Assembly: GCA_017302255.1 (NCBI GenBank)
Contig: JAFLDV010000006.1
Span: forward strand, 1 to 64,000
DNA: 64,000 bases
From: Gammaproteobacteria bacterium
GTDB lineage: Bacteria > Pseudomonadota > Gammaproteobacteria > Enterobacterales > Alteromonadaceae
Direction: 5' to 3'
Of the stretch, positions 5,481 through 43,757 are shown piece by piece. The number at the start of each line of letters is the position of its first letter. Within the stretch, counting starts at the first letter, position 1. Below the pieces are notes generated by a model. It was not told the DNA's origin and made no database searches. It was given only the letters and a program-made list of their open reading frames with translations. A program made the translations under genes and the position numbers.

Positions 5481-8400
5481 GCTTCAACTTATCGACATTA
5501 GCGGTGCGCGAACGCGCCATCACGCTGTTTTTTATCCTACTGTCGTTTATCGGTGGCGTTTATGCGTTTTTATCGCTAGGTCGCGCTGAAGACCCATCAT
5601 TTACCATTCGTGCCATGGTGGTCTCAGTGTACTGGCCAGGTGCGACTGCCGAAGAGATGCAATCACAGCTTGCCGATCGGCTGGAAAAACGCATTCAAGA
5701 AGTGCGCAACATCCACAAAATTGACAGTCAAATTCGCCCAGGCGCAGCAAACTTAACCATTGAATTCAAAGACTATACCCCGTCCGAGATGGTGCCTGAT
5801 TTGTTTTATCAGGTGCGTAAACGTATGCAAGAAGAGGCTGGTTCCTTACCGGCAGGCGTTATTGGCCCTGTGGTTAATGATTCGTTTTCGGATGTGTATT
5901 TCAGCTTATTGTCATTAACAGCTCCTGGTCTGCCATTTCGCGATTTAAGTCGTCAGGCCGAACAATTTCGTGATGAGCTAAGTTTAGTGCCTGGTGTGCA
6001 TAAAGCCGTGATTATCGCCGACCGTCCAGAACGGGTTTTTATCGATTTTAATCAAAGCAAACTGGCGACTTTAGGCGTCAGTGCCAACGACATTCAGCAA
6101 CAAATTAACGCGGCGAGCCGTTTATTGCCGGCCGGGCAGATTGAAACTGCAGGGCCTGCCCTCGCACTTCGAATCGATGCGCGGATCGATGATTTAGCCT
6201 CTCTCCAACAATTACCAATCCGCGTTGGCGGTAAGTTAATCCGTCTGTCAGAACTTGCGACCATTCGTCGTGGTTATGAAGAGCCTGCCCGACTGATTGC
6301 CCGCACCGCTGGCCAAGATGCCGTGTTAGTCGGTGTGGTAATGCAACCAGGTGAAAACGGTTTAACTCTGGGTAAAGCCCTGCAAGAAAAACTTAATGAA
6401 ATGCAAAGTCGTTTACCGCTTGGCATGGAATTACATCAATTAACCAATCAAGCCGACGCAATCTCTAAAGCTGTTGATTTATTTGAGATTAAGTTCTTAG
6501 TTGCAGTTTTAGTGGTGATGGCAGTGAGTATCTTAGCCATTGGCTTAAAAGCCGGTCTGGTCGTCGGAATCGCCATTCCGCTGACGCTTGGCATCACCTT
6601 CTTATTGATGAAGATGGTTGGCATCAACCTTGACCGGATAACGCTGGGCGCGCTGATTATCTCGCTTGGCTTGCTGGTTGATGACGCCATTATTGCCATT
6701 GAAATGATGATGGTGAAAATGGAGCAAGGCCTTGATCGCATTAAAGCAGCAAGCTTTGCTTGGTCTGCCACTGCTGCGCCAATGTTATTTGGTACTTTGG
6801 TTACAATCGCTGGTTTCGTGCCGATTGGCTTTGCCAAATCAGGCGTTGGTGAATATACCGGTAACATTTTCTGGGTCGTAGGTTTTGCGCTTTTGGTGTC
6901 ATGGGTGGTCGCGGTGACGTTCACCCCATACCTTGGCGTGAAACTGCTGCCTGCAGTCACGCAACACCATCGCGACCCTTATCAAACACCGTTTTATCGT
7001 AAACTGCGCGCCTTGATCCTCTGGTGTATCAAGCACAAAAAAGCAGTGATAGGCATCACCGTAGTCGCCTTTGTCTTGGCGGTTCTTGGGATGGGCAAAT
7101 TGGTACAAAAGCAGTTCTTTCCAAGCTCAGACCGACCAGAAGTGTTAGTCAGTATCTTTATGCCGCACGGTACCGCGATTGCTAACACCAACGCCACAGC
7201 GCTGCATGTTGAACAACTGCTGCACGGTAATGAAGACGTAAAATCTTTGTCGAGTTTTATTGGTGCCGGCGCCCCGCGGTTTTTCATATCAGCAAACCCG
7301 GAACAACCAGATCCGTCGTTTGCCAAAATACTGATCGTCGCCAAAGACGCTGAAGGCCGCGACCGTATCATGCATCTATTATCAGAGCATATCACTGCTG
7401 GTGAATTTAGCGCCGCGCGCGTTCGCGTCAGCCGGTTGTTATTCGGACCGCCAGTGCCGTGGCCGGTGAGTTTCCGGGTGATTGGTAAAGATCCGTTGGT
7501 ACTGCGTGAAATCGCCAACCAAGTGCAACAAGTGATGGCCAAAGATGCCAACATTGTTGGCGCGCATTTAGAATGGGATGAACGGGTACCAGTGTTACAA
7601 CTGAGCCTCAAAACCGATCAGCTAATTGCTTATGGTCTCACCGCAGCCGATGTCGCTCAGCAACTGCAATTCCAGTTTAGCGGCAGCACCGTCAGCCAAC
7701 TGCGCGAGGACATTCGCACCGTTGACGTGGTGGCTCGATTGGCTCGTGACCAAGCGCTGCAACCAGAATCTATTGAAATCAAAACCAATCAGGGTAAAGC
7801 CGTGTCGATCCGCCAGCTGGGTGATTTGACCATCGGCTATGAAGAACCGTTATTGAAGCGCTACAACCGCCAAAACTATTTAGCAGTTGTTGCCGATATT
7901 CAAGGTGCGCAAGCGAACGATGTCTCCAACCGCATCTGGGCACAGCTTGCCGACATTCAGGCGAAACTGCCACATGGCTATCGCATCCAGCAAGCTGGTT
8001 CAGTGGAAGAATCCGGCAAAGCAAACGCCTCAATACAAAAATTGATGCCGCTGATGGTGTCATTGATGCTGATCTTTATCATGCTGCAAATGCGCTCATT
8101 TACCGGCATGTGGATGGTACTGGCAACAGCGCCACTGGGCTTGATTGGCGCAACTATTGGTTTGTTAGTGTTTAACCAACCTTTTGGCTTCGTGGCTCTA
8201 CTCGGCTTAATTGGTCTTGCTGGCATCTTAATGCGCAATACGCTGATTTTGACCCAACAAGTTACCGACAATTTAAAACAAGGCTATCAAAGTAAAGATG
8301 CCGTGGTCGAAGCGACAGTTCATCGTGCTCGCCCAGTGTTACTTACTGCACTGGCAGCCATGTTAGCCTTTGTGCCACTCACTCTTGATACGTTCTGGGG

Positions 8401-30192: not shown

Positions 30193-30280
30193 CCGCTACC
30201 CTCATGATGCTTAATTCACTGTGCAATCGAGAAAAAGACAAGCCAAAATTTGACTGTAGTTTTTTTCAACATTTTTAAAT

Positions 30281-30294
30281 TGACAGCGTTGTCA
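30281..30294. promoter_or_regulatory. NagR-like operator, nagK/hex divergent region
   Basis: TGACAGCGTTGTCA is a palindrome with only two central mismatches, and AT-rich flanks extend it. Copies lie at 35526, 42280 and 42578. Its right half TTGTCA (30289-30294) doubles as a -35 box, with TATAAT 16 bp downstream (30311-30316), in the hex direction. A repressor bound here would block that promoter. Confidence 0.85.
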
Positions 30295-30316
30295 TTTTTT
30301 CAGTTCAGCATATAAT
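30289..30316 (+). promoter_or_regulatory. Promoter of the hexosaminidase gene
   Basis: TTGTCA (30289-30294), a 16-bp spacer and a perfect TATAAT (30311-30316) precede the hexosaminidase start by about 200 bp, leaving a long leader. The -35 box overlaps the NagR-like operator. Confidence 0.65.
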
Positions 30317-30520: not shown

Positions 30521-33232
30521 ATGAACGCAATACCACGAATTTTCGCTTGCGACCGAACGCCTACAATTGCTGGGACAACACCAAGCAAACTGAGACCTTG
30601 GGCCTTGTGTTTGGCGCTGCTCGCATTGAGTTTGCCCGCAATTGCTGCAGCTAAGACCTTGCCATCGCCTTTTAGCGCTCAAAGCAATTTGGATGACTTC
30701 GCGAAACAAAGCACAGTGCAATTTGCCCTAATCGCCAACGGCAAAGCTACTGACGGTAAGCCAACTGAAGGCAAGTTACACGCGCAGATCCTGCTGAGCA
30801 ACCGCTCAACTCTCGCCCTCCCTGCAGGCAGCAACGACTGGCAAATCTATTTCCACGCCATCCGTAAATTACAGAGTGTGAACTCGCCGGGTTTGCGGGT
30901 TGAACATGTGCAAGGCGATTTGCATCGAATTGTCGCGACCGAGCAATTTGTCGGACTCGCGCCAGGCAAATCAGTACAGATTGATGTGGTTGGCGGTCCT
31001 TGGATCGTCAGTTATACCGACTGGATGCCTAGGGCTTTTGTGGTTAGCCGTGGCCTCACACCCGCGGTTTTTGCCAACACTGATACCGAACAACTTAGTG
31101 AGTTTGTCGCACCTTTTGCTAAACCAGAACAGCAATTGCGTCATGCCAAAGATTTGTTTCCTGCTACCACTACCAGCTCACGATATGCGCATAATTTAAT
31201 GGTCAATCAACGGGAAATTGATGTCGCGGCAGCGCGAGATCGGATTTTACCGACGCCAAAATCAGTCAGTTACCAAAAAGGTCGCACCGAAATCAGTCAA
31301 AGTTGGCAGATCCAATTTCAAGGCCGGCTAAAGAATGAAGCGAACTATCTGCAGCAACAGCTTGCTACCGCCGGTCTAGTGTTGGCGCAAAATGCCGGTG
31401 TTGCCGCGCCATCTGCACAAAGTATTATTTTGGTTGTTGCTGAGCGGGCTCCTGACGACGTGATGCCCGCGGAAGGTTACCAGCTACAAATCCTCGCTGA
31501 CCGCATCATTATCACAGGCTCCGACAATGCCGGCGTATTTTATGGTGTGCAATCGCTGCTTAATTTAATTCCAGCAGGACAAGCCAGCAATTATCGCCTG
31601 CCACAATTGGTTGCCAGCGATGCGCCAAGATACGGCTGGCGCGGCATGCACTATGACATGGCGCGGAATTTCCATGGTAAAGCGGTCACTTTGCAGTTGA
31701 TTGAGCAAATGGCGCGTTACAAGCTGAACAAGCTTCATCTGCACTTAACTGAAGACGAAGGCTGGCGCTTAGAAATTCCGGGTTTACCTGAACTCACCGA
31801 CATCGGCGGCACTCGATGCTTTGATTTAACGGAGCAGAAATGCCTGTTAACCCAACTCGGCACTGGCCCGCATCGCACAGGCTCTGGTAATGGGTACTAC
31901 AGCACTGCGGATTTTATTGAGATCTTAAAATTTGCCGCCGCTCGTCATATCGAAGTCATTCCGGAAATTGATATGCCCGGGCATGCGCGCGCAGCCGTCG
32001 TGGCGATGGAAGCTCGGTATAACCGCCTGAAAAAAGCCGGACAACTGCAAGCGGCTGCACAATTTTTGTTAAGTGATCCAGAAGACAAATCGAGCTATTT
32101 AACCGTTCAAAACTATAGCGACAACTCAGTCAACGTCTGCCTAGATTCAAGTTATGCGTTTATCGACAAAGTAGTTTATGAACTGCAGCAAATGTATCGG
32201 CAAGCCGGCTTGCAACTCAGTACTTATCACATGGGTGGCGATGAGGTTGGCGTTGGTTCATGGCAAAAATCACCAGCCTGTCAGGCGTTGATGGCAAAAG
32301 GCTTACCGGGATTAAGTGGAGTCAGCGACTTAAAACCTTATTTCGTCGGACGCGTCGCGGCGCTACTGCAAAAACGTCGTTTAGCGCTTGGTGGTTGGGA
32401 AGATGGCTTGATGTATGACGCCAACACCCCATTTAATCGGGGCGAATTTGCCAACGATAAGGTTTATGCCAACGTTTGGGACAATATTTGGGAATGGGGA
32501 GTGGCTGATCGCGCCTACCGACTGGCCAATTCCGGTTATCAAGTGGTGCTATCGCATGGTACGCATTTGTATTTAGATCATCCAAACGAAGTCGCAGCAG
32601 AAGAACGCGGATACTATTGGGCATCACGTTTTACCGATGCGCAAAAGATCTTTGGTTATATGCCGGATCATCTTTATGCCAACGCGGATAAAACTCTCGC
32701 GGGGGAGCCTATCAGCAATTTAGAAGCGCTGCTTGGACGCGCCTTGCCAAAGCTTGAGCAGCCACAGAATATTTTGGGTATTCAAGGTCAAGTCTGGTCC
32801 GAGACGATTCGCACCAGCGAACAACTTGAACAAATGGTCTATCCGCGGTTGTTACCTATCGCTGAGCGCGCATGGCATCAGGCGAGTTGGGAAGGTGATA
32901 CTGTGGATCAAAAACGTCGGGATGCCGATTACCAAGCGTTCGCGCAAACCATGACACTGAAGGAATTACCGAAGCTTGCACAAGCAGGTGTCAGTTTTTA
33001 TTTGCCACCACCGGGTGCAACCATCAAAGATGGCCTGCTAACCGCGAATTCCGCTTACCCTGGCCTACTGATTGAATATAGCGTCGACCAAGGTCAAAGC
33101 TGGGTGCGCTACAGCGAAGCAACCAAGATTAATAGCCAAGGCATCAACCAAGCTAAAGTCTGGCTGCGAACTACGCTTCCTGCCAGTAACAGCAAGCCAG
33201 CTGTGCATAGTCGAGTTGTGTATAGCAATTAA
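30521..33232 (+). CDS. Beta-N-acetylhexosaminidase, family GH20
   Basis: This 903-residue exported enzyme starts at the ATG at 30521 (GGGGA six bases upstream). Order of parts: a signal peptide (about 1-42, ending AIAAA), an N-terminal carbohydrate-binding CHB/HEX domain (about 50-225), the GH20b domain (about 230-360), the GH20 barrel (about 362-760) and a C-terminal sandwich domain (about 805-903). The catalytic pair is Asp574-Glu575 in YHMGGDEVGVGSW; the Glu is the acid/base and the Asp orients the substrate acetamido group. It releases GlcNAc from chitooligosaccharides in the periplasm, feeding NagP. It is divergent from nagK and shares its operator. Confidence 0.95.
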   Translation: MNAIPRIFACDRTPTIAGTTPSKLRPWALCLALLALSLPAIAAAKTLPSPFSAQSNLDDFAKQSTVQFALIANGKATDGKPTEGKLHAQILLSNRSTLALPAGSNDWQIYFHAIRKLQSVNSPGLRVEHVQGDLHRIVATEQFVGLAPGKSVQIDVVGGPWIVSYTDWMPRAFVVSRGLTPAVFANTDTEQLSEFVAPFAKPEQQLRHAKDLFPATTTSSRYAHNLMVNQREIDVAAARDRILPTPKSVSYQKGRTEISQSWQIQFQGRLKNEANYLQQQLATAGLVLAQNAGVAAPSAQSIILVVAERAPDDVMPAEGYQLQILADRIIITGSDNAGVFYGVQSLLNLIPAGQASNYRLPQLVASDAPRYGWRGMHYDMARNFHGKAVTLQLIEQMARYKLNKLHLHLTEDEGWRLEIPGLPELTDIGGTRCFDLTEQKCLLTQLGTGPHRTGSGNGYYSTADFIEILKFAAARHIEVIPEIDMPGHARAAVVAMEARYNRLKKAGQLQAAAQFLLSDPEDKSSYLTVQNYSDNSVNVCLDSSYAFIDKVVYELQQMYRQAGLQLSTYHMGGDEVGVGSWQKSPACQALMAKGLPGLSGVSDLKPYFVGRVAALLQKRRLALGGWEDGLMYDANTPFNRGEFANDKVYANVWDNIWEWGVADRAYRLANSGYQVVLSHGTHLYLDHPNEVAAEERGYYWASRFTDAQKIFGYMPDHLYANADKTLAGEPISNLEALLGRALPKLEQPQNILGIQGQVWSETIRTSEQLEQMVYPRLLPIAERAWHQASWEGDTVDQKRRDADYQAFAQTMTLKELPKLAQAGVSFYLPPPGATIKDGLLTANSAYPGLLIEYSVDQGQSWVRYSEATKINSQGINQAKVWLRTTLPASNSKPAVHSRVVYSN

Positions 33233-33358: not shown

Positions 33359-34444
33359 TTGGCGAGATGCCAGCTTAGTGAAAGCCGACTGCAGTATCCG
33401 TCGCAGTGGCACTTCTGCATATCTAGCGATTATCCATGCCAGCATACTCACTAGCAGCATAACCAAAGGCACATAAAGCTCGCTGTAACTCAGCGGGTGC
33501 CACTTCTGCAGTTTAATCAGTAAAGCGACCCCCATATTTTCGTGAATGAGGTAAAGCGGATAGCTGATAAAACCAAAAAACCACCAGAATCGCCCAGTCA
33601 TCAGGTGCTGACAAGGCTGCCAAAGCACACAAGCAAGCATCCAGCAAGACACGAGCAAAGCCGAAATCAACACTCGATGTTGCCCAGCAGCAACGTCGGC
33701 ACTTGCGATCACAATCATCACTATGGTTGCGAGCAACAGGCGACGTTGCGGCTTTTGATGATATAAATAAAGTCCTGCACCGGCAAAAAACCAGCCGTAA
33801 TATTTAGCACCAAGTTCATGCAATAGCGTATGCACCAAATTAAGCGGCAACTTGAAGCTTGTGCTTAGTCCATCGACGAAATCAGCCGTTAGCAAATGAC
33901 CACAAACCAGCCACAGCAGATACATCGCGCCTAGACTCAGCCACGCAACCTTTGCTCCGAAGCGGAAAAACAAAATCCCGGCCACCACATAGAACTTAAA
34001 CTCAATATACAACGACCAAAAAGCACCTTCTAACGAGCCAAAAGTCCAACCCGTGGCGCGCGCTAACCAATAGGGATCGATAAAAAATAACCCTGAGACC
34101 AAGTTAATGGCCTGCGGCATCCCTTGTGGGCGTTCTGGTAGCCAAAACGCAGTGGTAAAAATCAAGAGACTCGCCAGTAACATCGCCGGAAAAAGCCTTA
34201 GCCAGCGTTTATACAAATAGCCAAGTAGATTATCGCAACGCTCTAGAGTCATGAAAATCACAAAGCCAGAAATCAAAAAAAACAAATTCACCCCGAGATA
34301 GCCCATCTCGAATATTGGCCATTGTTGATAAGTGCTACCAAAAGGCACCAACTCGGCCCAACGCGACAAAAAGTGATACAAAATCACCCACAGAATGGCT
34401 AATCCACGCAAGCCATCTAGATATTCCAGACGTTGTTTACTCAT
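33356..34444 (-). CDS. Membrane acyltransferase (acyltransferase-3 family)
   Basis: This 362-residue protein has about ten transmembrane helices and the family opening RLEYLDGLRGLAILWVILYHF, with the conserved His of the first helix at the end of that segment. The SLEGAFWSLYIEFKFYV motif, with its catalytic Glu region, is also present. Such proteins carry an acetyl or acyl group across the inner membrane to O-acylate a polysaccharide or glycan. The gene overlaps the SGNH gene by eight bases. In many bacteria the two domains form one polypeptide, so here they probably work as a split pair. The glycan acceptor is unknown, and no polysaccharide cluster is adjacent. Confidence 0.88.
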   Translation of the reverse strand: MSKQRLEYLDGLRGLAILWVILYHFLSRWAELVPFGSTYQQWPIFEMGYLGVNLFFLISGFVIFMTLERCDNLLGYLYKRWLRLFPAMLLASLLIFTTAFWLPERPQGMPQAINLVSGLFFIDPYWLARATGWTFGSLEGAFWSLYIEFKFYVVAGILFFRFGAKVAWLSLGAMYLLWLVCGHLLTADFVDGLSTSFKLPLNLVHTLLHELGAKYYGWFFAGAGLYLYHQKPQRRLLLATIVMIVIASADVAAGQHRVLISALLVSCWMLACVLWQPCQHLMTGRFWWFFGFISYPLYLIHENMGVALLIKLQKWHPLSYSELYVPLVMLLVSMLAWIIARYAEVPLRRILQSAFTKLASRQ

Positions 34445-35141
34445 GACATTCCTTGGCTAACGCCTGTCTTAATTGGCTTCGTAAGACATCATATCCGCTT
34501 TCTGCTAAGTGAATTCCATCCGTAAGCAGCAGCTTATCGGCCGCTTCCACAGGCAAAGTTTGCCAGGTCCCAGCAATGAACTCTAACTGCGAAGACCCTT
34601 CTGCGAGTTTTTTCAGCTCGACATTCAGCTGCTGAACCCGTTGCGCCGCCTCGAAGTTAGTAAAGGTGCTCGCTGGCGGTGGAATCGCGACCAGAAGCTT
34701 CTTAGTACGTGGCGCTAGCTGCGCCAATACTTGCTGGTACTGCTCGATGATTTTAATATTACTGCGATAAGGCAAATCGTTGTAACCAATCAATAAAACG
34801 ACAGCACTTGCACTTTGGATACTCGAATAATATGGCAACCGCGCTAAAATGCCACTCGTGGTATCTCCACCTATCCCTAAATTCACCGCTTTTGGGCAAA
34901 AGTCATTTAGATATAAGCCTTGAATATGACTATCACCGAGCAGATGCACTGAATTCTTCTGAATAAACGGCTGTTGACGCAACTGAAAAGCCAACATATT
35001 TCGTTGATATTCCCCGCCCTCAGCCGGTGGCACACCAAAGTATCCCAATAGCATTTGATAGGCGTCAGTTCTGGTTACTAGCAACGCTAACAACAGATGC
35101 AAAACCACCAGATACATCCAAAACAATTTTTGCTTAGGCAT
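34437..35141 (-). CDS. Membrane-anchored SGNH/GDSL hydrolase-type acyltransferase
   Basis: This 234-residue protein starts at the ATG at 35141 (a GTG two codons earlier is possible). One N-terminal transmembrane helix (about 5-25) anchors a periplasmic SGNH domain: block I GDSHIQG with the nucleophile Ser, the block II glycine in GIGGDTTS, block III Asn in GYNDLPY, and the block V Asp-x-x-His pair in LTDGIHLAESGY. It overlaps the acyltransferase-3 gene, and the pair should transfer an acyl group onto a periplasmic acceptor. The strong terminator at 35284-35315 separates it from upstream minus-strand transcription, so it likely has its own promoter within 35142-35283. Confidence 0.87.
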   Translation of the reverse strand: MPKQKLFWMYLVVLHLLLALLVTRTDAYQMLLGYFGVPPAEGGEYQRNMLAFQLRQQPFIQKNSVHLLGDSHIQGLYLNDFCPKAVNLGIGGDTTSGILARLPYYSSIQSASAVVLLIGYNDLPYRSNIKIIEQYQQVLAQLAPRTKKLLVAIPPPASTFTNFEAAQRVQQLNVELKKLAEGSSQLEFIAGTWQTLPVEAADKLLLTDGIHLAESGYDVLRSQLRQALAKECHE

Positions 35142-35283
35142 TAACACATGCTCACTTCAAGATCCAGACTCTCAGCGTCAAGGCTGGGGGAAAAATTTCG
35201 CTTAATCCAAGCGAAGCATAGTCGTTGATCTGTCGACCAAAAATCAATGGTGGCCTATGTGAAAGCGGTTTTATTTCGCCCAT
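35142..35283. other. Short upstream region of the SGNH gene
   Basis: This stretch lies between the terminator at 35284-35315 and the SGNH start. It must hold the SGNH promoter if the terminator is efficient, but I see no convincing boxes. A 62-codon frame across 35152-35340 spans the terminator and is not credible. Confidence 0.4.
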
Positions 35284-35315
35284 AAAAAAACAGGACACTG
35301 CAGAACAGTATCCTG
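35284..35315 (-). terminator. Strong Rho-independent terminator (minus strand)
   Basis: CAGGACACTG (35291-35300) pairs with CAGTATCCTG (35306-35315) over ten bases around a 5-base loop, with one G-U wobble in the minus-strand RNA. Seven U residues follow in that direction (A-run 35284-35290). It lies downstream of the NagR-like site at 35526 and of the halogenase operon. Confidence 0.9.
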
Positions 35316-35532
35316 AAAAACCTTGGATAAGGATTGGCAAATAAACACAACATCCAACGCTTTGCTAGGTCGACCAACTACCAATCGAACACAGCTGATA
35401 AGGGAGAGACTTATCAATTTAAGCATAGAAGGCAGTTAAGCTTGCGCTTACTGAACGGCATAACATCGAACCAGCAGGGAATTCGATAGGATATTACGCC
35501 ACTGCAAAGCTAGTTTACCAATAAATGACAAC
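35284..35532 (-). ncRNA. Candidate NagR-controlled small RNA or leader
   Basis: On the minus strand a perfect TATAAT (complement of 35539-35544) is followed at once by a NagR-like operator (35526-35539) covering the expected start site, and a strong terminator ends about 250 nt later at 35284. No convincing protein gene lies between; the best frame is 15 codons beginning at 35461. The simplest reading is a repressor-controlled small RNA. The alternatives are the processed 3' end of the halogenase mRNA, or an attenuated leader for the SGNH/acyltransferase genes. No consensus -35 box is visible, which lowers confidence. Confidence 0.45.
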
Positions 35533-35539
35533 GCTGTCA
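35526..35539. promoter_or_regulatory. NagR-like operator 3' of the halogenase operon
   Basis: TGACAACGCTGTCA lies 20 bp after the first halogenase stop codon. It is identical to the receptor operator at 42280-42293. On the minus strand it directly follows TATAAT and would block transcript initiation. Confidence 0.8.
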
Positions 35540-35559
35540 TTATATTTTTGCCGATATTT

Positions 35560-37098
35560 TCAGCGATAGCGTTGCAGATAAGTTGCCAATGGAATTGTAC
35601 TAAGTTCAGCATGTTTGGCTTGCTGCTGGACCTTCGCAAACAAACTTTCATACTGAGGAGTGGTAAACCGGCGCTGCAGTTGCGGGTAATGACCCATACC
35701 ATAAAGCACAAACCGATAGTTCTCATCGGTAAAGGTCGTAGAGAAAGTGCCAGCCAAATCCATGTATTCACAAACCTTATGCTGCCAACATGCCAATTGC
35801 GCCGGCAATCCCTCGCAATATTGAGCTTTTTCAGCGGCAGCGCGCCAAAACTCACTATCGTCACGATCAGTTAAACAGTAATGCAAAACGATAAACTGTT
35901 TCAAATCAGTATAAAAACCATTCATCAGTCGGTTGTATGAATCGCGCACCGCTTGCGATTGTTGCTCACCAGCCAAATGCGTCGATAACAAGCGCGCACC
36001 TAAATTTATTAAATGCAGACCCGTCGACTCTAACGGCTCAATAAAACCGCCAGCCAAACCAACAGCGATGCAGTTACCAACCCAAAATTCTTTGCGACAG
36101 CCGACTTTCATATCCAAATGGGTGCATTTAAGTACAGCCGCATCCGAGCCCAAATAACTGCGAAGTTCCTGTTCTGCTTGTTCTTTACTGAGTTTTTCAC
36201 CGTCATAAACATAACCGGTGCCTTGCCGATCGGCTAAATCAATCTCCCAGACCCAACCATGACTAAGCGCAGTTGCCGTGGTATAAGGTTTTGGCGGCGC
36301 CGGCAGTTCGCGTTGGATCGCCACCGCTTTATTGCAAGGTAAGGCGTCGGTAAAACTTTGCCAGTTGTCGGCTTTGAGTGCGTCCAGCAATAAACCACGA
36401 AAGCCGGTACTATCAATAAAAATGTCGGCAGTGAAATTACCTTGGTCGGTCACAATTTCACTGATGTTGCCAGCAGCCACCACCACATCTTTGACCGTTG
36501 CGACCTGGTGAATAACCCCTGCTTCAATCGCTTTACGCCGAAGAAACCGCGCCATTTTCACTGCATCTAAGTGGTAACCATAAGGAACAACGCCTTGGTA
36601 AGCTTCTGATTGTGGCGTTTTCGGACTGCGACCAGCGGCAATCAAATGAGAGGACAAACTGACCCCTTGATCAAAGCGTTCTAGCGTGTAGCGCGCATCT
36701 TGCAACCAACTACTGCTGATATCCATGTCCATGCCAAGCTTCAGATGGTCGAAGGGATGGAAATACTGGTGAGTTTGGCCATTTACCGGTTTACGCCAAT
36801 TTCGAAACATGATGCCAGTTTTAAAGGTGGCATTAGTTTCACGCATGAGTTCAGCTTCATCTAACCCCATTGCGGCAAAGAAAAAGCGGATGCTGTGCAC
36901 AGTCGCCTCGCCCACCCCAATGATTGCAATGTCTTCACTTTCAACTAAACGGATTTCGATATTCGGCGCAACTTCGCTGCTGCCGTTTGCCACTCGGTCA
37001 CCATTAAATACTCGATTTAGATAAATCGCAGTCATCCAACCGGACGAACCACCGCCGACAATACAGATAGAACGTAAAGGCGTTTTAGACTGCTGCAT
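35560..37098 (-). CDS. Tryptophan halogenase-like flavoprotein 1
   Basis: This 512-residue protein belongs to the flavin-dependent tryptophan halogenase superfamily (PrnA/RebH fold). FAD binds at CIVGGGSSGWMTA (about 12-24). Lys93 in ATFKTGIMFRNW matches the catalytic lysine (Lys79 of PrnA). The halogenase W-x-W-x-I motif is partly kept as Trp282-Val-Trp284-Glu-Ile, but the following Pro is replaced by Asp. GFIEPLESTGLHLI is the usual second FAD/substrate motif. It lies 15 bp after a paralogue and after a SapC gene, in the order receptor-SapC-halogenase-halogenase. In carbohydrate loci such proteins have no proven halogenation role. Confidence 0.9.
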   Translation of the reverse strand: MQQSKTPLRSICIVGGGSSGWMTAIYLNRVFNGDRVANGSSEVAPNIEIRLVESEDIAIIGVGEATVHSIRFFFAAMGLDEAELMRETNATFKTGIMFRNWRKPVNGQTHQYFHPFDHLKLGMDMDISSSWLQDARYTLERFDQGVSLSSHLIAAGRSPKTPQSEAYQGVVPYGYHLDAVKMARFLRRKAIEAGVIHQVATVKDVVVAAGNISEIVTDQGNFTADIFIDSTGFRGLLLDALKADNWQSFTDALPCNKAVAIQRELPAPPKPYTTATALSHGWVWEIDLADRQGTGYVYDGEKLSKEQAEQELRSYLGSDAAVLKCTHLDMKVGCRKEFWVGNCIAVGLAGGFIEPLESTGLHLINLGARLLSTHLAGEQQSQAVRDSYNRLMNGFYTDLKQFIVLHYCLTDRDDSEFWRAAAEKAQYCEGLPAQLACWQHKVCEYMDLAGTFSTTFTDENYRFVLYGMGHYPQLQRRFTTPQYESLFAKVQQQAKHAELSTIPLATYLQRYR

Positions 37099-39618: not shown

Positions 39619-42219
39619 TTAGAAACGGAAACTTGCACCTAAAGAGATACGGCGAGCCATTTCATATTCGTATAACGGGAAGCCATCAACGAAACCAGAG
39701 TAGTTCGTTTGTTGACGGTTGTTACCGAATTGACGTGAGCCTTCTTCTGTTAGGTTGTTAACATCTAATTTCACGTCCATGTAATCAGTCACATGATAAA
39801 CCGCGCTTAAATCTAACGAACCGAAGTCGTCATGCAGACGGTTACCATATGAACCAGATTCACGGATCATGTATTCGCTACGCCAGTTATAAGCTAAACG
39901 AACTTGGAACTGATCGTTTTCATAATAACCTGTCAGGTTGTATGAATTACGCGAACTGTCACTTAAGAACGGGTTGCGGTCGGTGAAAGTATCAGCATCA
40001 GTCGATGTGTCGGTATAGGTGTAGTTCACTACTGTACCAAAACCGTTCTCGAAGTCAGTTTGATACTGCAATTCAAAGCCTTGAATTGATGCATCTTTAC
40101 CGTTGCCTTTTTGCTCAGTGATCCAGCCATTCGCCGCTTCAGCAGGGCGCGTCAATGGGAATGGGATCTCAGCAGCAGTTGCAGTGCCTTGGGTGATGTT
40201 GACGAAGTTCTTCACATCTTTTAAGAACACGCCAGCAGACACCATAGAGTTCGCGTTGTAATACCATTCAAAACCGATATCGAACTGGTCAGAGATAAAC
40301 GGTTTCAGACCGATATTACCAACAATCCAACGTTGGTTATTTGGTGTATCGTCGTTTGTACCCATCACGTTCGGGTTCACGTACATATCAACATATTGTG
40401 GACGTGCTAAGGCACGAGCCGCTGACACACGAACAATTTTGTCTTCTGCTAAATCAACAACCATGTTGAAGCTTGGCAGGAATTCAGCGTAATCAGCTGA
40501 AGATTCAGTGCGTTTGTTCGCAACATAATAGGTTGAAGTCGCATCGGTAGTTACATAACGTAGACCGAAGTTACCACGGATATGCTCTGTGCTATATCCA
40601 GCCATACCGTAAATTGCAGCATTGGTTTCGTCGATTTCGCTATAAGCGCCTAAATCTTCGCGCTCACCGATGATGCTGGCTTTTGCCCAATCTTTCAGTT
40701 TCTGCGCGTCGAATTTGCGAATACTGTAATCACCAGCACCAACATCCATATTGCCATCTTGGATACCAGAGGTCGAAATCACTGGGTTAAAGCCAGCACG
40801 TTGCAAGAATTCAAAACGACGGCTAGTAGTGTTGTGGTCAGCTACGCGGAAACCTGTCTTAAATTCGGTGATTGGGCCTAAATTCAGTGCAAATGTCACG
40901 TCTGATTGTAAATATGATTCACCATCAGTTTTTGGCGTTTTGTTGAAGTTTGGACCTGTGCCCATCGCCAATGAACCTGGATCGTACGTCGACATATTGA
41001 AGCTGCCGGTATTCCAAGTTTGTGCGCCGCCAGTAAAGTCGTATTTACCGTTAGTAATTGCTGTGCCGCCAGTGCCGTCATCAACAACCATTTCAAAGTC
41101 AGTACCACCAGTTGAGCTAGTATCGCCCACTTGAGTAGCCCACTTGTAGTTGTCGCCTTCGTATTCAAACTTCAGGTCATACACTTTTGAAGTCATAGTC
41201 GCTTCACGTGGACGCGCTTGGTAATAAGCCACATTTAATGGGCCTTTTACTTGCGTACCTTGTTTACCTGGAGTTACACCATCGCCACCCAGCCATTTTT
41301 CAGTAACGCCTGAACCCCAGCTGCTGTCCGCTTGTGTTAACCACAAAGCGTAGTTGGTGTTATCTGCCGCCATTTCCATATTCATGGCATTGAAAACCAA
41401 GTTCAGGTTTTCTGTTGGCGCATATTGGAAAGTCGCAGTGTAAGCTGAACGCTCACGGTCTTGTTCAAAAGCAACTGGGCCTGCACCCCATTCCCAAAAC
41501 GCTTCGTTACCTTGGCGTTGTAAGCTGCGTTGTTGATGAACAACAGAAACTAACGCACCGATTGTTTCATCAGCGTTTTTCCAGCTGTACATGCCTGAAG
41601 CTTGTGGATCCAAAGCTTCTGAATCTGATTGGTAGCTACCTTCAACAGAGAAATAGGCAGTGTTTGCATCTAAATCTAATGGCTTGCGGGTATTAACTAC
41701 CACAGTACCACCGATGCCGCCTTCGTTAAGGTCAGCTTGTGATGCTTTGTAAACTTCTAAGTTACCAACCAATTCTGATGGCAGTAATTCATAGTTGAAG
41801 CTACGACGTGCTGGTTCTAAAACGAACCAACCGGTCGATGCAACGTTTTGACCGTTTAATGTAGTCAATGTTAAGTCTTGGCCAGAACCACGGATCGATA
41901 CGCCCGCACCTTCACCAAATTGGCGTTGAATAGTAACACCAGGTACCCGTTGCAATGATTCCGCGACGTTTTTGTCTGGGAATTTGCCGATATCTTCAGC
42001 GGTAACTACGTCGAGGATAGTATCGCTAAAACGTTTTGCGTTTAAGTTCGCTTGTTGCGATGCGCGAATACCGCGAACCTCAATCACTTCAACTTTTTGT
42101 TCGGTTGCCGCTGCAGCAGGGGCTTGTTGCGCCATGGTCGGAGCGGCCATGGCCGCTGTACCTACGAACAAACCTAATTTCACAGCTAAGGCACATTTAT
42201 TCAATTTGGTGTGCGACAT
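39619..42219 (-). CDS. TonB-dependent receptor of the GlcNAc/chitooligosaccharide locus
   Basis: This 866-residue receptor has a signal peptide (about 1-30), a TonB box near EVIEVRGIRASQQANLNAKR (about 44-63), a plug (about 65-185: NVAESLQRVPGVTIQRQFGEG) and a barrel ending GASFRF. The GIRASQ start marks the Xanthomonas/Caulobacter-type receptor group used for carbohydrates. A NagR-like operator 61 bp upstream overlaps its likely -35 box. With the hexosaminidase and nag genes, this makes chitooligosaccharide or GlcNAc-containing glycans its likely substrate. It is followed by sapC and two halogenase-like genes. Confidence 0.93.
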   Translation of the reverse strand: MSHTKLNKCALAVKLGLFVGTAAMAAPTMAQQAPAAAATEQKVEVIEVRGIRASQQANLNAKRFSDTILDVVTAEDIGKFPDKNVAESLQRVPGVTIQRQFGEGAGVSIRGSGQDLTLTTLNGQNVASTGWFVLEPARRSFNYELLPSELVGNLEVYKASQADLNEGGIGGTVVVNTRKPLDLDANTAYFSVEGSYQSDSEALDPQASGMYSWKNADETIGALVSVVHQQRSLQRQGNEAFWEWGAGPVAFEQDRERSAYTATFQYAPTENLNLVFNAMNMEMAADNTNYALWLTQADSSWGSGVTEKWLGGDGVTPGKQGTQVKGPLNVAYYQARPREATMTSKVYDLKFEYEGDNYKWATQVGDTSSTGGTDFEMVVDDGTGGTAITNGKYDFTGGAQTWNTGSFNMSTYDPGSLAMGTGPNFNKTPKTDGESYLQSDVTFALNLGPITEFKTGFRVADHNTTSRRFEFLQRAGFNPVISTSGIQDGNMDVGAGDYSIRKFDAQKLKDWAKASIIGEREDLGAYSEIDETNAAIYGMAGYSTEHIRGNFGLRYVTTDATSTYYVANKRTESSADYAEFLPSFNMVVDLAEDKIVRVSAARALARPQYVDMYVNPNVMGTNDDTPNNQRWIVGNIGLKPFISDQFDIGFEWYYNANSMVSAGVFLKDVKNFVNITQGTATAAEIPFPLTRPAEAANGWITEQKGNGKDASIQGFELQYQTDFENGFGTVVNYTYTDTSTDADTFTDRNPFLSDSSRNSYNLTGYYENDQFQVRLAYNWRSEYMIRESGSYGNRLHDDFGSLDLSAVYHVTDYMDVKLDVNNLTEEGSRQFGNNRQQTNYSGFVDGFPLYEYEMARRISLGASFRF

Positions 42220-42279
42220 GAGCTTCTCCCATTCCTGTTTTTTTTCGTATGCGATGAGTATTTTTTATCTGTCCTGTAA

Positions 42280-42293
42280 TGACAACGCTGTCA
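42280..42293. promoter_or_regulatory. NagR-like operator of the TonB receptor
   Basis: TGACAACGCTGTCA lies 61 bp upstream of the receptor start. On the minus strand its half TTGTCA can serve as the -35 box, with AATACT 17 bp downstream as a weak -10. This is the same overlap as at the hexosaminidase promoter. Confidence 0.82.
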
Positions 42294-42577
42294 TTGAGAT
42301 TCAACATACACAAAAATATTTCGATTTGCAAACGCATTTAGTCGATTTTTTAGCCGACATTTTTCTCGCTGATTGTAGTCGATTTTCTGAGCTATGCTTT
42401 GACTCTGGACTATCATGGCACAAGGCCAAAACAGAGAATTCACAAATAGCATTGATTTAAAAGAATAAATTAATAAACCTAAGTAATTTCGACCTTTTTT
42501 GAATTTATAAATCGCAAATAAACAATTGCTGTTTGGTCAAAAAAGTTGTATCCATTTACTCAATAATTATTACAAAA

Positions 42578-42592
42578 TGACCAACGCTGTCA
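42578..42592. promoter_or_regulatory. NagR-like operator upstream of nagR (one-base insertion)
   Basis: TGACCAACGCTGTCA is the shared palindrome with one extra C in the left half. It lies 86 bp before the nagR start and suggests weak autoregulation. Confidence 0.65.
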
Positions 42593-42677
42593 TTGTTTGA
42601 CAACATTCGTCAATTTGGCCACGCAATCTGCCGCGTTAAGGCCTCGAATTAAATGCATCTTTGTTTAGGGTAAAAAC

Positions 42678-43757
42678 ATGAAAGTGACCATCAACGATGT
42701 CGCCGACTTGGCCGGTGTTTCGATCAAAACGGTATCACGGGTGATGAATAACGAGCCTTCGGTCAAAAAGGCCACGCTCGATAAAGTCAATGCAGCCATC
42801 GCAGAGTTAAATTATCAACCGAACGCAGCAGCACGAAATTTAGCTGGTACGCGGTCTTATAGCATTGGCTACATTTATGACAACCCGAACGCCTATTATG
42901 TGATTGATATGCAAAGGGGTTTGCTGGATGCATGCCGCAAAAACGGCTATGAATTACTCATTCATCCAACCAACGCTAAATCCGCAGGGATAGTGCAAGA
43001 AGTCATCGAGTTAGTGCAGCATGCACGGCTAGCCGGTCTAGTGCTAACTCCTCCCTTTTCCGAAATGCCAGAAATTGCTGAGGCATTGGAAAAAATCGGC
43101 GTGGACTTTGTGCGGATCATCTCAGGCTCAACTCCGTCACCAAAATTAACCAATTGTGTATTGGTCGACGACTTTACCGCAGCGTTTAAAATCACCAACC
43201 ATTTATTAGAATTAGGCCACACTGATATCGCATTTTTATGTGGTGACGAGGAGCATAGCTCCAGCGGCGAACGTTTGGCAGGCTTTCAAGCCGCATTAAC
43301 TAAACGCGGCATTCACGCGAACCCCAAATTTGTAGTGCCAGGCAGTTACTCTTTTGAATCCGGAGTCAAAGGCGCAAAACACTTATTGGGCCTAGGCCAG
43401 CGACCAACCGCAATTTTTGCCTGTAACGATGAGATTGCAGCGGGAGCGCTGTTTTCCGCGCGTTTATCCAATGTGGATATTCCTACCGAATTGTCGATTG
43501 TTGGCTTTGAAAACAGCCCGTTCTCGCGGCAAACTTGGCCACCGCTAACCACTGCAAACCAGCCAAACAGCACTATTGCTATGCAAGCAGCAGAACTACT
43601 GTTCAAACATGCGAGACCAGCCGGCCATCAGCTCAATACTACAGAACAACAACCAGTATTTATTCCTGAATTGTTAGTGCGCGAATCCACGGCGATTTGC
43701 CCAAACCCAGCGCTATCTACCACACAAAAATCAGCACAAAAAAACACCCGGTCGTAA
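42678..43757 (+). CDS. nagR: LacI-family regulator NagR
   Basis: This 359-residue LacI-family protein has an N-terminal helix-turn-helix and hinge (VTINDVADLAGVSIKTVSRVMNNEPSV, residues 3-29, then YQPNAAARNLAGTRS) and a periplasmic-binding-like effector domain (about 62-340, with AIFACNDEIAAGAL and LSIVGFENSPFSRQ). LacI-type NagR replaces NagC in Alteromonadales and responds to a GlcNAc metabolite. The locus contains four copies of one palindrome, at 30281, 35526, 42280 and 42578. This is what a dedicated LacI repressor would recognise, including one site before its own gene. The effector is inferred. Confidence 0.9.
   Translation: MKVTINDVADLAGVSIKTVSRVMNNEPSVKKATLDKVNAAIAELNYQPNAAARNLAGTRSYSIGYIYDNPNAYYVIDMQRGLLDACRKNGYELLIHPTNAKSAGIVQEVIELVQHARLAGLVLTPPFSEMPEIAEALEKIGVDFVRIISGSTPSPKLTNCVLVDDFTAAFKITNHLLELGHTDIAFLCGDEEHSSSGERLAGFQAALTKRGIHANPKFVVPGSYSFESGVKGAKHLLGLGQRPTAIFACNDEIAAGALFSARLSNVDIPTELSIVGFENSPFSRQTWPPLTTANQPNSTIAMQAAELLFKHARPAGHQLNTTEQQPVFIPELLVRESTAICPNPALSTTQKSAQKNTRS

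Follow-up and report, generated by a model that had tools for sequence, protein, structure and literature searches.

A candidate small RNA gene of the NagR regulon in Rheinheimera and related genera

Background

In E. coli and Salmonella, the small RNA (sRNA) ChiX is tied to the uptake of chitosugars via the mRNA of an outer-membrane transporter and works beside the circuit of a GlcNAc repressor; according to passages of PMC4098024, NagC represses chiP and the chb genes, and a decoy mRNA removes ChiX, whereas the Rheinheimera RNA considered here itself has a repressor operator. A second sRNA that is induced by chitin sugar is TfoR of Vibrio cholerae. There, as passages of PMC11856585 describe, TfoS together with ChiS activates TfoR and translation of tfoX is enabled, while the Rheinheimera RNA would be under a LacI-type repressor. 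The protein side of the circuit is familiar as well: in Gammaproteobacteria, LacI-family NagR proteins regulate nag genes and TonB-dependent receptors (TBDRs), as stated in parts of PMC5343134 and PMC2996990. The term "small RNA" does not occur in the main-text portions of these two papers, nor does "sRNA" in those of PMC5343134.

An RNA member of the NagR regulon thus appears to be new. The open-access papers covered by our searches on NagR, Rheinheimera, Alteromonadales, the LacI family and chitin or GlcNAc sRNAs yielded no such RNA by title or passages, and no paper on a Rheinheimera sRNA by title. Metabolic sRNAs under control of a LacI-family protein have a precedent in RsaI of S. aureus, which is controlled by CcpA. 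CcpA and RsaI represent global catabolite control in Firmicutes; in the candidate described here, control would instead come from a local sugar repressor encoded next to the operon that it regulates. It would be a new small-RNA family of a familiar type, with clean computational support for its wiring.

The locus and its operators

The window, i.e. the whole analysed stretch of 64,000 nucleotides, carries the sRNA locus between the TBDR/halogenase operon and a gene for a chitin-sugar enzyme, a hexosaminidase (Table 1). We take the nearby LacI-family gene to be nagR, from its position in the nag cluster and from the published NagR regulons; its product would bind the operators listed. We assign a probability of about 0.8 to the reading that the locus is an sRNA gene of the NagR regulon, repressed by NagR, induced by GlcNAc and equipped with its own promoter and terminator. 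In our best reading, the predicted regulatory RNA has a length of about 180-260 nt.

Table 1. Predicted features at and around the sRNA locus, in window coordinates
Feature	Position	Strand	Basis or remark
Second tryptophan-halogenase-like gene, last in the TBDR operon	35560..37098	-	PF04820
NagR-like operator AATGACAGCGTTGTCATT	35524..35541	-	0 mismatches; operator before the RNA in 25/25 RNA-bearing genomes
TATAAT box, possible alternative -10	35539..35544	-	not conserved; poor -35
Preferred promoter: -35 ATGACA (35540-35535) within the operator, 17 nt, TGG-extended -10 TAAACT (35517-35512)	35512..35540	-	promoter scan
Small RNA, predicted ~222 nt	35284..35505	-	putative 5' end, ~35533 if TATAAT is used; R1 match and fold
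Hairpin with UCUCCC mostly in the loop	35396..35416	-	fold of the window copy
Covarying hairpin with conserved AUUGGUAGUUGGU loop	35365..35393	-	8/11 pairs with double-sided change; GUAGUUG in 24/25 RNAs
Conserved block GGAUGUUGUGUUUAUUUGCCAAUCC, candidate target-binding region	35331..35355	-	alignments A1 and A4, consensus fold: mostly unpaired
Mini-hairpin CCUUAUCCAAGG, nearly invariant, absent in third genus	35321..35332	-	alignment
Intrinsic terminator: stem 35315-35291 (11 pairs), T7 35290-35284	35284..35315	-	terminator scan and covariation
TBDR gene, first in operon, leader AUGGGAGAAGCUC-AUG	39619..42219	-	PF00593/PF07715
NagR-like operator of the TBDR operon	42278..42295	+	operator scan; 0 mismatches
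NagR-like operator between nagK operon and hexosaminidase gene	30279..30296	+	operator scan; 1 mismatch
NagR, LacI-family regulator, putatively binding the three operators	42678..43757	+	PF00356
GDSL lipase-like gene 3' of the terminator	34437-35147	-	ORF position

The initial annotation of this DNA had placed a NagR-like operator behind the stop codon of the last operon gene and a strong terminator with seven U residues about 250 nt further on. Both are there: the operator matches the reference sequence AATGACANCGNTGTCATT without mismatch and starts 18 nt after the stop codon of the last halogenase gene (35562-35560, minus strand), and the T-run behind the 11-pair stem ends 240 nt from the end of the operator. 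By itself the terminator scan is no proof, because in a stretch of 1.2 kb it returned three terminator-like sites against 1.3 expected. Operator sites with up to three mismatches numbered three in the window against 0.25 expected by chance, and the three window sites (sRNA, TBDR, nagK/hexosaminidase) are the only ones with zero or one mismatch in the whole genome.

The proposed layout of a regulated sRNA is borne out in relatives. All 25 RNA-bearing genomes, which belong to three genera, have a NagR-like operator with zero to three mismatches just upstream of the RNA and on the same strand (the window, 16 other same-genus loci, six of the second genus and two of the third; L016, L055, L059 and L060 show three mismatches each, and a second, distant three-mismatch site in L013 was left out of the count). 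This operator is missing from four RNA-less loci that are otherwise intact. A conserved operator at the predicted promoter in 25/25 carriers and its absence from 4/4 informative genomes without the RNA are what we would expect of a member of the NagR regulon.

RNA structure and coding capacity

The predicted RNA of 222 nt (35505-35284) folds at -69 kcal/mol (z = -5.0), and none of 200 shuffled sequences folded as well. The covariance model R1, which was built from sequences including that of the window, matches positions 35285-35398 with an E-value of 5e-15. Rfam 15 gave no match up to E 1 between positions 33000 and 38000 of the window, and searching a plasmid collection did not return a match to the RNA.

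Covariation was a check that the initial annotation had named for this segment, and it turned out strongly positive for both the hairpin and the terminator. Our set, A4, comprises 23 aligned copies from the window's own and the second genus; two of 25 model matches were partial antisense hits to the terminator and were omitted, and the two third-genus copies, which were found later, are not included. Of all cells at paired positions, 96.1% can pair. Changes on both sides were seen for 17 of 25 pairs, and 7 of 500 shuffles attained this number. The covariation score of 0.622 compares with at most 0.131 when the partners are slid and was attained in none of 500 shuffles; the rows of A4 are related, so that these shuffle counts are not probabilities, and the slide control is biased toward the structure, which was partly derived from the same sequences. 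In hairpin 1, which carries the loop UUGGUAGUUGG, eight of 11 pairs have changed on both sides and 91.7% of cells pair; for the terminator stem the figures are nine of 10 and, in 23 copies, 100%. In the second genus the sequence of the terminator stem has been replaced with pairing kept. Taken together, the covariation shows that selection acts on RNA structure.

Other elements behave differently. The mini-hairpin (CCUU/AAGG) is without support as a structure, since none of its pairs changes on both sides and the third genus has lost it. The block GGAUGUUGUGUUUAUUUGCCAAUCC is mostly unpaired in the consensus and partly paired in the minimum-energy fold of the window copy, and its core is kept in the third genus. 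UCUCCC occurs in 16 of the 25 RNAs and CUCC in six more; three have neither.

No open reading frame runs through the family in the 23 RNAs that were checked. In nine of them we found no ATG-initiated frame of at least 12 codons ending within the RNA; the listing covers frames that start with ATG and close inside the RNA. We consider it very improbable that a small protein is encoded here, alone or by an RNA with a dual function: some RNAs do contain ATG frames of 13-54 codons, and such frames are shared within the pairs of close relatives L005/L013, L055/L057 and L059/L060, but their place and sequence differ between lineages. Two features expected of an independent regulatory sRNA are thus seen: an intrinsic terminator closing the 3' end, and conserved structure with compensatory changes in place of a conserved frame.

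Distribution and loss

The RNA is present in 25 genomes of three genera, namely 17 of 22 Rheinheimera genomes (the genus of the window), all six of a second genus and two of 31 of a third. When the DNA was compared with that of 60 genomes, 20 gave matches, and the 3' part is shared by 16 same-genus genomes besides the window's. A pattern scan of 84,980 species returned 16 matches, ten in Rheinheimera, four in Gammaproteobacteria bins and two by chance; the latter (L037 and L046) were dropped, as no operator or terminator was seen by eye in 401 bases of each. Model R1 matched 14 of 196 genomes of the family and 17 of 22 of the own genus, from which its training sequences came, and in addition 6/6 genomes of the second genus, which it had not seen when built. 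At the level of the order, R1 recovered three of 394 genomes, all of the own genus, under stricter filters that lose weak matches; within this scope the RNA was not found outside the family. Model R2, to which the second genus had been added, matched 25 of 395 family genomes in the three genera (2/31 in the third). The RNA must be dispensable, because there is no model match in five of 22 same-genus and 29 of 31 third-genus genomes.

All five same-genus genomes lacking the RNA have nagR. In four of them (G014, G015, G016 and G021) the locus is intact and the TBDR and nagK operators remain; in the stretch from the TBDR operon to the hexosaminidase gene, no operator is found within three mismatches. 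In these four loci the third operator is thus missing together with the RNA, as a single unit, and the other two operators stay. On a hexosaminidase tree, RNA-bearing genomes separate G014 from the other three (bootstrap support of the forks only 83-84%), which suggests two losses of operator plus RNA. The fifth genome, G017 (L100), is uninformative on loss, as the 12 kb at its nagR contain neither a TBDR nor a hexosaminidase gene, operator or autoregulatory site. It does keep nagR, and the NagR it encodes is close to the NagR proteins of relatives that carry the RNA.

Promoter

A perfect TATAAT adjoining the operator had been counted as part of the sRNA layout. The box exists; beyond adjoining the operator, it shares 3 nt with it. 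Its best -35 element is TCGCTG at a distance of 16 nt, with two of six consensus matches, and within the window's group TATAAT in this position is confined to the window itself. Of the order box-operator-terminator that had been expected in relatives, operator (25/25) and terminator are therefore kept, the TATAAT box is not.

An alternative has its -35 within the operator. In nine of 25 loci, including the window, a TAnnnT follows 17 nt behind the ATGACA of the operator (GTGACA in one), giving nine of 12 consensus matches in each; the other 16 loci lack it. In the promoter scan, promoter-like sites were no commoner than in shuffled sequences. Six of the nine loci could be placed on the hexosaminidase tree, where all fall into one clade (support 98/99), so that a promoter embedded in the operator looks like a trait of this clade; on the NagR tree, on which seven could be placed, two changes are needed because the RNA-less G017 falls among them. 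The promoter with its -35 inside the operator fits the window's clade better than TATAAT does, and the assignment there is still ambiguous. Outside the window's group, 12 of 16 loci have, by consensus matching only, an upstream promoter of the TTGATT/TTGAAC/TTGCAT/TTGACC type that ends 1-4 nt before the operator, such as TTGATT-16/17-TAATAT. A repressor bound to the operator would block either arrangement.

Neighbouring genes and independence from the operon

We compared 16 RNA-bearing nag loci (13 of the own and three of the second genus). In all 16, the convergent hexosaminidase gene is a fixed flank on one side of the RNA. A receptor gene flanks the other side in 15, of which 14 are full-length and 34-85% identical to that of the window and one is partial at 25%; the contig of the sixteenth, L090, ends before any receptor gene. 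Halogenase and SapC genes between receptor and RNA are present in some loci and missing from others, and in L090 and L093 one halogenase gene in this interval has the opposite orientation. The description of the RNA as lying behind a halogenase operon is accordingly true of the window and incidental otherwise, sapC or another gene often being nearest in relatives. The RNA is independent of the protein genes of the neighbouring operon, which vary between species. An operator behind a stop codon here marks a structured RNA gene that persists while the receptor and halogenase genes next to it change, and looking for regulon operators behind operon ends suggests itself as a cheap route to sRNAs.

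From nagR to the hexosaminidase gene, the loci L080-L099 differ strongly in receptor, halogenase and SapC genes, with nagR, the flanks and the receptor leader constant. This leader, CAGGAAUGGGAGA(GA)AGCU-AUG, is near-identical across the own genus though the receptors differ.

Since LacI-family proteins can loop DNA, one could view the operator as an auxiliary NagR site that forms a loop with that of the TBDR operon at a distance of 6.7 kb, and the terminator as simply the end of the halogenase operon, with no RNA function involved; indeed, the 18 nt between stop codon and operator in the window leave no room for another terminator. We regard this as improbable. It leaves the covariation of the internal hairpin, the conserved unpaired block and the joint absence of operator and RNA unaccounted for, and in five of six second-genus loci a terminator-like hairpin with a T-run, recognised by eye (unclear in L054), already precedes promoter and operator. 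In those five the RNA is a free-standing unit, because this hairpin stands before the promoter.

The segment might instead be a NagR-controlled leader or attenuator of the GDSL lipase-like gene, which has the same strand and follows the terminator. This is hardly credible: the second and third genera have the convergent hexosaminidase gene close by and no same-strand gene, and still keep RNA and terminator, the sole same-strand frame (90 codons, L132) being antisense to the hexosaminidase gene. The comparison covers the second and third genera; in relatives of the own genus 1-2 kb lie between the RNA and the hexosaminidase gene.

Proposed mechanism and target search

We favour an sRNA gene of the NagR regulon, and infer repression by NagR, the inducer and expression of the RNA as follows. 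Without GlcNAc, NagR would occupy the operator overlapping the promoter and keep the RNA off; a GlcNAc-derived signal would free NagR, and the RNA would be transcribed alongside the TBDR and nag operons, from its own promoter to its own U-rich terminator. In the window it may also arise by read-through from the halogenase operon, which the 18-nt spacer makes possible. The RNA would display the UCUCCC loop, the GUAGUUG-loop hairpin under structural selection, the mostly unpaired block and an Hfq-type 3' end; as to Hfq, the U-rich 3' end is the feature visible in the sequence. Its most likely mode of action would be base pairing with mRNAs, with Hfq binding and targets presumed likewise, so that arrival of the sugar would alter translation or stability of other messages and perhaps cap the TBDR. 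If expressed, the RNA would add post-transcriptional control to chitin-sugar use in Rheinheimera. The joint conservation of RNA fold and operator in related aquatic bacteria suggests that this use is subject to a further, so far concealed level of regulation.

In target prediction against nag and receptor mRNAs, UCUCCC can pair with GGGAGA in the TBDR leader; duplex energies for the nag cluster are weak. All 19 receptor leaders have GGGAGA at the ribosome-binding site; four of them come from genomes without the RNA, so that pairing with the RNA is not the sole reason for conservation of the leader. Pairing of UCUCCC with the leader of the NagR-controlled TonB receptor is weakly indicated. Other exact complements of 6-7 nt were limited to A/T-rich runs of the TTTTATT type, and we found no conserved long mRNA complement to the RNA. 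The motif ATGGGAGA-N3-7-ATG is not receptor-wide, since just one of its four places in the own genome is a TonB receptor. Duplex energies, which are exploratory only given letter-shuffle controls, inexact hexosaminidase starts and RNA segments that were wrongly cut (the second, in at least L089 and L094) or misplaced (the first, in at least L080), were weak for the TBDR leaders (mean z -0.62 and -0.69, n = 15) and lower for a gltS-like leader (z -2.19 with the UCUCCC segment, n = 10 related genomes) and the nagP leader (z -2.5 with the other segment, n = 1).

It is tempting, and in our estimate doubtful, to read these elements as an incoherent feed-forward loop, in which the LacI-type repressor drives both the receptor operon and the sRNA, and the UCUCCC loop covers the GGGAGA of the receptor. 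If true, this would cap receptor synthesis even while the operon swaps its protein genes from species to species.

An RNA of this anatomy and under this control might rather sequester a protein or another sRNA, a reading that overlaps with the preferred one and differs from it in the mode of action alone. The failure to find a conserved mRNA target speaks for it, as does the fact that conservation among the structured elements is highest in a loop (GUAGUUG); no repeated protein-binding motif is seen by eye, and the Hfq-type 3' end and the conserved, mostly unpaired block argue for pairing. We consider sequestration unlikely.

In the search for near-perfect complements, GGATAAGGATTGGC with at most one mismatch occurs at 48 places in 22 genomes; 15 of these places are the RNA itself. 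Of the other 33 we inspected 16; by eye, L128 of the own genome is the only one at a likely ribosome-binding site. Recurring places were dismissed as targets, as those inspected lie within or antisense to long frames. At L128 (G000:C9:65234-65247, minus strand), the ribosome-binding site of an orphan secreted protein of 153 aa pairs with the GCCAAUCCUU block of the RNA (10 pairs, with more beyond a mismatch; a 50-nt segment of the RNA gives -31.8 kcal/mol). This gene is present in only one of 22 genomes of the genus and was dropped as a general target.

Further NagR-like operators

At 83 nt upstream of nagR (42576-42594; minus strand AATGACAGCGTTGGTCATT), the window has a NagR-like operator whose centre contains one additional base. 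Ungapped operator scans miss this site. Besides the window, 17 of 18 fetched loci containing nagR have it about 82-98 nt before the gene, including the four RNA-less loci L096-L099; the exception is L100. It is probably an autoregulatory site with altered spacing. A further NagR-like operator, with two mismatches, was seen in L095 (G087) at position 6172, within the operon region and directly before sapC.
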